A stretch of 64,000 nt of DNA from Flavobacteriales bacterium. GTDB taxonomy: Bacteria; Bacteroidota; Bacteroidia; Flavobacteriales_C; GCA-002722245. Both the position numbers and the translations under genes were made by a program. Positions 7,063 to 8,861 of the stretch are shown here, in pieces. The notes under the pieces are model-generated. The model saw nothing but the letters and a program-made list of their open reading frames with translations, was not told where the DNA came from and made no database searches. The stretch is from assembly GCA_023251075.1 (NCBI GenBank), contig JAHEZM010000006.1, positions 1 through 64,000 on the forward strand, given 5' to 3'. The number at the start of each line of letters is the position of its first letter. Position 1 is the stretch's first letter.

Positions 7063-7632
7063 ATGACGATTGAGAGAGAGCTAATAATACAATGTTTACA
7101 AAAAGATAGAAGAGCACAAGAAAAGCTCTACAAAATCTGTTTTCAGTTGTTGATGCCTTTATGCTACAAATATGTGCGGCAAGAAGAGCTAGCTAGAGAA
7201 CTATTGAATCAGGCCTTTGTTAAAATCGTCTATGCTCTGGAAAATTACAACGCAGAATTATCATTTAAAAAATGGGCACAAAGCATTACACTCAATCACT
7301 TGATTAATGAATACCACAAACAAAAAAGAATAAGAGCAATAATAGATGAAAATATAGCAGATGAAACTATGGAATATAGATCAATAGAAAAATCGAAAAA
7401 TGCTTACGATTATGAAGTTGAAAATGAGCATTTGAATAAGATTTTAGAAAAATTACCGCCCGCAACCAGAAAAGTATTTAACTTGTTTGCCCTTGAAGGG
7501 TATTCTCACAACGAAATAAGTGAAATACTCAATATATCTACTGGTACTTCTAAATGGCATTTATCAAGTGCTAAAGAGTTATTGAAAAAAATTGTTGCCG
7601 GAACATTTACTTTTTTATTGTTTTTAAAATGA
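7063..7632 (+). CDS. ECF-type RNA polymerase sigma factor
   Basis: This 189-residue protein has sigma-70 region 2 (~20-95, with 'WAQSITLNHLINEYHKQKR') and region 4 (~125-175), whose helix-turn-helix reads 'GYSHNEISEILNISTGTSK'. ECF sigma factors redirect RNA polymerase to small regulons when released from an anti-sigma factor. The stop codon overlaps the next gene's start by 4 bases (ATGA), so the two are translationally coupled. This is the arrangement expected of a sigma/anti-sigma pair. The last ~13 residues are unusually hydrophobic. Confidence 0.9.
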   Translation: MTIERELIIQCLQKDRRAQEKLYKICFQLLMPLCYKYVRQEELARELLNQAFVKIVYALENYNAELSFKKWAQSITLNHLINEYHKQKRIRAIIDENIADETMEYRSIEKSKNAYDYEVENEHLNKILEKLPPATRKVFNLFALEGYSHNEISEILNISTGTSKWHLSSAKELLKKIVAGTFTFLLFLK

Positions 7633-8861
7633 AAAAAAATAACAACATACCTGAATTTGAATTCAAAAAAGACTATTGGTTAGAAGCCGAAAAGTTGCTT
7701 GTAAAAGAAGAAAAGAAAAGAAGATTTATTTTCTTTTGGTGGAATTCTTTTGTTCTTGCCTCAATATTAACCATAGGTACTTTTATATACATCAACAATA
7801 ACAACAATGATGAAATCACTGTGGCACATAAAATTGAAAAAAAATCAAATTTTATTTCACAAAATAACATACCCAAAAATGGGATTTTAAATACTAAAGG
7901 AACTGAATTTAAATCAAAAAAAGTTTCACACAACAACAACAACAACAACAACAACAACAACAACAACAACAACAACAACAACCTTCTAACATCCACCACA
8001 GCTAATACAATCACTCCGTCAACACCGGTTACCCCTAAAGAAAAAGACACATTACTTTCGGAAATAAACACTAAAGAAAAACAACTGGAGAACTTTTTTG
8101 ATTCATTAAACCAATTAAAAACCAGTAACCCAATAAAGATTGCAAAAATATTTTGCAAAAATACATTCCTATACGGAGGCATTCAATTAAACCATGCTTT
8201 CTTCCAGGCCAATACCATTTCTTCTTTAAAAACATCTATGAAATTTGGAGTGAATTTGGAAGTGAAATTATACCATAATCTGTTTGGTAATATTGGCGGG
8301 GAATGGAATCATTACCAAAATTTCTTTGAAAAAACAACAAATTACAATGCACAGGAAAACATTGGTATGGCACTAGACAATATCTTACAGGATGACGATA
8401 GTTATAATACCGGTATTCTGGGAGGTGTTTTTGTTCTGGATACTATCAATAACACCACACAAATCAATAATGTCACCTATTCCAACAATACTATTATAAC
8501 ACGGAACACCAAAACAGACGAAACAGGAGTTTACGCCGGAACTTTAGGAATTCCAATTTCATTAGGGTATCGCGTAAATCGTTTTAGTATTCAATGTGGG
8601 GCTACTGAAGAATTCATGCTGTACAACATGATCAATACAAAATTAGAAAATAGAATTGATCAGAATTTATTCAGTTACAACGAAGCAATATCATACAACA
8701 ATTATAGCTACGGATCTCGTTGGTTAACTTTTGCAACAGCATCACTATTGTATCATATCAACGAAAATTTCAGCGTGTCGATAGATGCTAAAAAACTAAT
8801 GAACAAAGGATACAACAACACCATACAAAGTGCACTAACATTAAAATACAGATTGAAGTAA
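7629..8861 (+). CDS. probable dual-membrane anti-sigma-like protein: cytosolic N-terminus, one TM helix, poly-Asn linker, outer-membrane barrel
   Basis: The 410 residues fall into four parts. First is a short charged N-terminus (1-32). Then comes one hydrophobic helix (~33-55, 'FVLASILTIGTFIYI'). A polar, low-complexity linker (~56-170) includes 17 consecutive Asn (102-118). The C-terminal region (~175-410) has alternating strands and Tyr/Asn-rich turns typical of Bacteroidota beta-barrel proteins. This layout matches the dual membrane-spanning anti-sigma factors (Dma) described in Bacteroides: N-terminal sigma-binding segment in the cytosol, barrel in the outer membrane. The 4-base overlap with the sigma gene supports this. 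Sigma binding is inferred from position and topology only. Confidence 0.7.
   Translation: MKKNNNIPEFEFKKDYWLEAEKLLVKEEKKRRFIFFWWNSFVLASILTIGTFIYINNNNNDEITVAHKIEKKSNFISQNNIPKNGILNTKGTEFKSKKVSHNNNNNNNNNNNNNNNNNLLTSTTANTITPSTPVTPKEKDTLLSEINTKEKQLENFFDSLNQLKTSNPIKIAKIFCKNTFLYGGIQLNHAFFQANTISSLKTSMKFGVNLEVKLYHNLFGNIGGEWNHYQNFFEKTTNYNAQENIGMALDNILQDDDSYNTGILGGVFVLDTINNTTQINNVTYSNNTIITRNTKTDETGVYAGTLGIPISLGYRVNRFSIQCGATEEFMLYNMINTKLENRIDQNLFSYNEAISYNNYSYGSRWLTFATASLLYHINENFSVSIDAKKLMNKGYNNTIQSALTLKYRLK
7932..7982 (+). repeat. (AAC)17 trinucleotide tract
   Basis: Seventeen perfect AAC codons encode the poly-Asn part of the linker. Slippage here would change linker length in one-residue steps without a frameshift. 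Confidence 0.97.

Follow-up and report, generated by a model that had tools for sequence, protein, structure and literature searches.

An ECF sigma factor and a predicted dual-membrane anti-sigma factor of the Reo/Dma kind, next to a conserved promoter and a Kazal-domain lipoprotein gene, in a Flavobacteriales bacterium

The Dma and Reo proteins are recently described leashes of sigma factors in gut Bacteroides, from which they are mainly known, and they link the state of the outer membrane to vesicles, polysaccharide use and protection against toxins. Loss of Reo or Dma raises sigma-dependent expression in Phocaeicola and Bacteroides (PMC9308784, PMC13088901, PMC13114119). In Phocaeicola vulgatus, loss of the anti-sigma factor activates the regulon and protects against toxins (PMC9308784), and in B. 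thetaiotaomicron loss of Dma2 raises vesicle output via its sigma factor (PMC13088901). The EcfO-Reo pair of B. fragilis and P. vulgatus is apparently the counterpart of Das1-Dma1 of B. thetaiotaomicron.

The window analysed in this study is a stretch of 64,000 nucleotides from a Flavobacteriales bacterium (GenBank assembly GCA_023251075.1, contig JAHEZM010000006.1, positions 1 to 64,000), and it carries a predicted divergent relative of these proteins (Table 1). We consider it likely that the two genes encode a sigma/anti-sigma pair of the EcfO-Reo (Das1-Dma1) kind, which would be anchored by an outer-membrane barrel and would release its sigma factor to the promoter of a Kazal-domain gene. 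What is new is the ECF-type promoter in front of that lipoprotein gene, which recurs in sister species.

Table 1. Features of the sigma factor locus, with positions in the window
Feature	Position	Strand	Basis and remarks
ECF-type promoter ACCCAACC-N16-TGTA	6402..6429	+	28 nt before the ATG of the Kazal gene; conserved in the genus
Lipoprotein with two Kazal-type serine protease inhibitor domains, proposed target	6458..6952	+	Pfam Kazal_1 E 2.8e-8, two stretches; LTSC lipobox by eye
Terminator-like hairpin between the Kazal and sigma genes	6958..7003	+	-24.7 kcal/mol, z -8.6
ECF sigma factor, EcfO/Das clade	7063..7632	+	189 aa; Pfam, NCBIfam, tree
Predicted dual-membrane anti-sigma factor, Reo/Dma type	7629..8861	+	410 aa; profile match to 27 Reo relatives; AlphaFold2
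Trp-helix module EFEFKKDYWLEAEKLLVKEEKKRRF, residues 9-33, proposed sigma-binding segment	7653..7727	+	Conservation, motif counts
Predicted inner-membrane helix, residues 33-51	7725..7781	+	Hydropathy, charge asymmetry
Predicted periplasmic linker, residues 52-178, mostly disordered	7782..8162	+	127 residues; AlphaFold2, composition
Perfect (ACA)17.7 microsatellite, 17 Asn in the linker	7930..7982	+	Tandem Repeats Finder score 106
OmpA/Ail-like outer-membrane barrel, residues 179-410	8163..8858	+	AlphaFold2, Foldseek

The sigma factor gene and its partner gene

Both open reading frames lie where the initial annotation had placed them, and the claimed overlap of four bases between the sigma gene and the second gene is the sequence ATGA. 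Profile searches confirmed the product of the first gene as an ECF sigma factor, with matches to TIGR02937 (E 6e-26) and to Pfam Sigma70_r4_2 (E 3e-12). When the B. fragilis genome was searched with this protein, 29 ECF matches were obtained, of which the top two were EcfO and an EcfO paralogue (E 7e-16 and 4e-17), the third being at least five orders of magnitude weaker (1.5e-10). The paralogue likewise has a partner with the conserved tryptophan-containing helix, here called the Trp module, that is described in the next section. A tree was built from 41 sigma factors, and the 35 that have a Trp-module partner, EcfO included, all fell on one side of a 100/99 branch. The window sigma factor and those of its genus formed a 100/100 group on a long branch (1.24), nested within a 100/98 group together with those of L018, L020, L021 and L024. 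This position and the best B. fragilis matches place the window sigma factor in the EcfO/Das (ECF21) group.

Matches to the second protein were found in nine of 100 related genomes, the window genome included, and the best match elsewhere was in the same genus with 35% identity. The nearest same-genus relative keeps both the pair and the overlap (sigma factor 68%, second protein 35% identical). Eleven of the twelve other matching places (L014-L024) lie directly behind an ECF sigma gene, the overlap of four bases being common to L014, L015, L016 and L018, and the twelfth (L025) matches weakly, in the linker alone. As the pair and its overlap are kept in the relative and 11 of the 12 places follow a sigma gene, the arrangement is not due to chance. 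The cognate ECF sigma gene thus stands directly upstream, as for Reo and Dma, and the 4-bp overlap is kept in same-genus relatives. Five further pairs of a sigma factor and a membrane protein were found in the window genome, on contigs C43, C15, C41 (two) and C45.

A Kazal-type gene stands in front of the sigma gene in the window and also at the same-genus loci L014, L015 and L016. Upstream of the Kazal gene and of its counterparts there is a conserved site with the consensus ACCCAACC-N16-[CT]GT[ATC], in short ACCCAACC-N16-YGTA, which stands 19-57 nt ahead of the gene start wherever the distance was measured. AAC and CGT boxes at such a spacing are typical of ECF promoters, as for sigma-W of B. 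subtilis. In flavobacteria, ECF promoters are recognisable by a CGT box at -10 (PMC9723704). The site was found at seven loci in five species, i.e., the window and six loci of four other species of the genus, where it precedes four Kazal genes and three secreted beta-helix-type genes beside a paralogous pair; the boxes are kept across these loci, and the spacer and flanks differ. In the whole genome (3.28 Mb), no perfect match was found other than the site at 6402, and about one is expected by chance, so that the argument for the promoter is one of position and recurrence, not of count. With one mismatch allowed, 34 matches were counted genome-wide against 42 in the reversed control, and we therefore claim one target and no wider regulon.

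The window sigma factor probably switches on the adjacent Kazal-domain lipoprotein rather than the known Bacteroides targets; the promoter, which this sigma factor would use, is tied to it only by neighbourhood and conservation. It is also conceivable that the pair is a true anti-sigma pair with a target other than the Kazal gene, and that the conserved promoter serves another ECF factor. The genome indeed holds a dozen further ECF matches besides the window sigma factor, and the terminator-like hairpin separates the Kazal and sigma genes. But the promoter recurs beside the window sigma clade in five species and precedes two unrelated gene families, and the ten matches seen when 18 long stretches were read on both strands (285 kb) are all located at these sigma loci; we regard control by another factor as the less likely reading. 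Different hairpins were found at the corresponding position in the relatives L104 and L106. No good copy of the promoter was found directly in front of the sigma gene, and together with the hairpin this means that autoregulation is not established. At the Bacteroides loci checked, the same promoter was not found near EcfO. The literature search on Kazal proteins returned nothing bearing on bacterial regulation.

Further copies of the site were seen at other loci. The beta-helix loci L107 (~5355), L108 (~5662) and L109 (~5703) carry a second perfect site, ACCCAACC-N16-CGTA, on the minus strand between the beta-helix and sigma genes, pointing into the 3' end of the beta-helix gene, where an antisense or small RNA is possible. 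At L130 (G003:C110, ~4796) a promoter copy precedes a lipoprotein-like start, SSCTKDCHSTG, and the frame is broken soon after.

The second protein and its Trp-helix

The second protein had been described as a short cytosolic N-terminus followed by one inner-membrane helix, a disordered linker and a barrel, and this layout is supported by hydropathy, composition and AlphaFold2. Residues 1-32 are highly charged, and the hydrophobic helix at about 33-51 has KKRR on its inner side and acidic and Asn residues outside; hydropathy and this charge asymmetry predict a single inner-membrane helix with the N-terminus inside. The linker consists to 70% of N, S, T, K, E, Q, P and D, with pLDDT mostly below 50. 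The AlphaFold2 model, built with 11 homologues, contains a helix at 14-59, disorder at about 60-147 and some 8-10 strands in 179-409. The barrel core has pLDDT above 90; owing to the large disordered share of the chain, confidence in the model overall is low (mean pLDDT 63, pTM 0.47). In Foldseek the barrel matched OmpA and Ail with probability 1.00 and a target TM-score of 0.48-0.52, but numerous other porins matched as well, so that the fold class is clear and nothing finer. Pfam and NCBIfam searches with the window protein gave noise alone, leaving its barrel without a Pfam match, and the PDB sequence search using the family profile gave no match; the barrel of the relative L016 passes Pfam OMP_b-brl_2.

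The ACA microsatellite within the linker is the strongest tandem array in the window and is absent from the nearest relative. Slippage in this array would alter the length of the linker with the reading frame intact.

The initial annotation had likened this layout to that of the Dma proteins and proposed a search for their homologues, and the search bore the likeness out. The known family was reached via the NigD genes, which sit beside EcfO-Reo and where pairs of a sigma factor and a barrel protein were found; a scan with one NigD-side sigma factor yielded 47 loci, including two B. fragilis strains with the EcfO-Reo-NigD arrangement. The barrel profile of the window family matched that of 27 Reo relatives with a probability of 97.1% and E 6.2e-11 (94.6% with a different set), which establishes homology to Reo/Dma1 beside a sigma factor of the EcfO clade. 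The N-terminus with the membrane helix matched the Reo profile with a probability of 89% and the same order of elements. The N-terminus alone gave 5% and no usable match, because it has only about 30 residues and helix 1 is missing. The linker of 127 residues falls within the 98-169 of the Reo relatives. The AlphaFold2 model of B. fragilis Reo has helices at 4-18 and 28-35, a membrane helix at 46-70, disorder to about 200 and then a barrel, for which Foldseek returned OmpA and Ail as for the window barrel. The order of elements is the same in the models of Reo and the window protein, the overall confidence of the full-length models being low in both.

The best-conserved part of the second protein is its N-terminus. 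In the alignment of 11 homologues, mean identity to the window protein was 50% for residues 9-33, three times the 16% of the barrel; the membrane helix reached 25% and the linker 12.5%. The core of this Trp-helix is W-x2-h-x3-h, with WLEAEKLL as the window version. Of 67 different genes that directly follow a sigma match, 59 carry the motif, whereas it is found in 5 of 54 among the other membrane ORFs and in 33 of 511 when all ORFs are counted; it was defined by eye on some of the sequences counted, and many of the Bacteroides entries are close relatives, so this count is not an independent test. W17 of the window protein aligns with W28 of B. fragilis Reo, a Trp that is invariant in the 27 Reo relatives. 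The same-genus paralogues L017, L022 and L023 have Arg in its place, and the motif Trp is thus not strictly required. Reo has an extra helix before the Trp-helix, with a nearly invariant W8, whereas the window branch lacks it and carries a short NNIPEFEF-type segment instead. The earlier suggestion of a divergent Dma branch agrees with this missing helix and with a sigma factor that lies in the EcfO clade but on a long branch.

The N-terminus had also been called short and devoid of a recognised anti-sigma domain. No Pfam or NCBIfam anti-sigma model matched the second protein, a Class I anti-sigma domain (ASDI) included, so this description holds for the databases only; the segment is no unrelated tail but carries the Trp-helix that recurs in the partners of this whole clade of sigma factors, with helix 1 of Reo absent. 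The Trp-helix may be the minimal sigma-binding module.

Control polarity is not readable from sequence, and the second protein could instead assist the sigma factor, acting as an activator or as a scaffold for its delivery or stabilisation. Some single-pass sigma regulators, those of the FecR type, are needed for the activity of their sigma factors. The studied relatives Reo, Dma1 and Dma2 are on the contrary negative regulators (PMC9308784, PMC13088901), and the activator role appears improbable. A cleaved signal, which would have turned the N-terminus into a signal peptide, is unlikely in view of the conserved 32-residue N-region and the KKRR by the membrane, yet the small-x-small tripeptides VLA|S and TIG|T are present within the hydrophobic stretch. 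That the second gene encodes an ordinary outer-membrane barrel with a long signal peptide, co-transcribed with the sigma gene and not an anti-sigma factor, is very improbable: barrel proteins are numerous in Bacteroidota and the tripeptides would suit such a signal, but residues 9-33 are conserved far better than the barrel, a charged N-region of this length would be unusual in a signal peptide, and in the partner of a sister sigma factor, the vWA protein of L027, the Trp module stands in front of a sensor that is not a barrel.

As a sigma/anti-sigma pair of the EcfO-Reo kind, the two proteins would work as follows. The anti-sigma protein would span the inner membrane once, with the barrel anchoring its other end in the outer membrane, and at rest the cytosolic Trp-helix would keep the sigma factor tethered to the inner membrane. 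Strain, damage, a ligand or another change sensed by the barrel or the linker would free the sigma factor, which would then transcribe from ACCCAACC-N16-YGTA and turn on the neighbouring Kazal-domain gene, whose lipoprotein product may inhibit proteases at the envelope. One may speculate that this output serves as a defence against an external or misplaced protease, or as feedback on a protease that cleaves the anti-sigma factor.

Trp modules with other sensors

Trp modules were also observed in other settings. On contig C43 of the window genome (L026:1644-3539), a sigma gene is followed by a gene for a protein in which five tandem Trp modules (some 35 aa per module) and a membrane helix precede a barrel of the PorP/SprF family (Pfam E 1.9e-19), and the next gene encodes a lipoprotein that by eye resembles a gliding-type secreted protein. 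Further loci with several tandem modules are L188, L189, L191-L194 and L195. Each of the four other species in the genus has the multi-module form, as do three species from another genus of the family, and a four-module protein was found in one more distant genome. At the cell surface, PorP-like proteins bind proteins with a type B secretion signal (PMC9143113), so the PorP/SprF form could report type IX secretion to the sigma factor, and a C43-type protein possibly links type IX secretion to transcription. The literature search found no fusion of PorP/SprF with an anti-sigma factor reported in titles or abstracts, which is not proof of absence. On contig C15 of the window genome (L027:2113-4299), the gene that follows an ECF sigma gene combines a Trp module and membrane helix with a non-barrel sensor, a vWA YfbK-like domain. 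In B. fragilis, L186:2160-3741 holds a second conserved Bacteroides sigma factor with a Trp-module membrane protein; this sigma factor has a counterpart in all ten Bacteroides genomes searched, and the pair may be the CirY/CirZ pair of PMC13114119.

It is conceivable, and in our judgement evenly balanced, that the Trp-helix is the shared sigma-holding module of a large Bacteroidota anti-sigma family with exchanged sensors (an OmpA-type barrel, a PorP/SprF barrel preceded by four or five Trp modules, a vWA/YfbK-like domain, or no sensor at all), in which the window protein would be an envelope-sensing branch answering with a Kazal-type inhibitor.

Comparison with known systems

The window locus extends the Dma/Reo kind to a distant genus of the same class. 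It supplies a candidate minimal sigma-binding motif in which a single Trp can be tested, together with a predicted promoter and target gene, which make barrel sensing and signalling to the sigma factor testable by a simple reporter.

The closest described system is EcfO-Reo of B. fragilis and P. vulgatus, which shares with the window the sigma clade, a partner gene directly downstream, the Trp-helix module, one inner-membrane helix, a disordered linker of equal length and a homologous barrel of the 8-strand class. On the other hand, the window sigma factor is about 30% identical, and its neighbour is a Kazal-domain lipoprotein gene and not NigD, so that the layout recalls nigD beside ecfO-reo with a different target gene. 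No match to NigD_N was found in the window genome, and the Bacteroides target NigD was thus not seen; a link to vesicle release, as had been suggested for this pair, likewise found no support there. A NigD neighbour is a trait of the Dma1/Reo branch and not of the whole Dma family, and Dma2 acts by a route other than NigD1 (PMC13088901). Likened here by its published description alone, Das2-Dma2 of B. thetaiotaomicron (BT_1559-BT_1558) has the same architecture (PMC13088901) and differs in that it controls polysaccharide loci and vesicles. Dma3 of B. thetaiotaomicron, also a member of the Dma family (PMC13088901), carries a sigma-like domain at the N-terminus of the anti-sigma factor itself, whereas the window has two genes. 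In ten Bacteroides genomes, no frame long enough for a natural fusion of the Dma3 type was found among the matches listed. FecI-FecR cell-surface signalling likewise puts an ECF sigma factor under the control of an outer-membrane barrel, with a single-pass regulator in between; that system consists of three separate proteins with a TonB-dependent receptor, whereas in the window the barrel and the regulator are predicted to form one chain. Set apart from Reo by its lack of the first helix and of a NigD neighbour, the window pair agrees with the Dma/Reo proteins in every general sequence feature tested and is, on these features, a real and divergent member of that kind.
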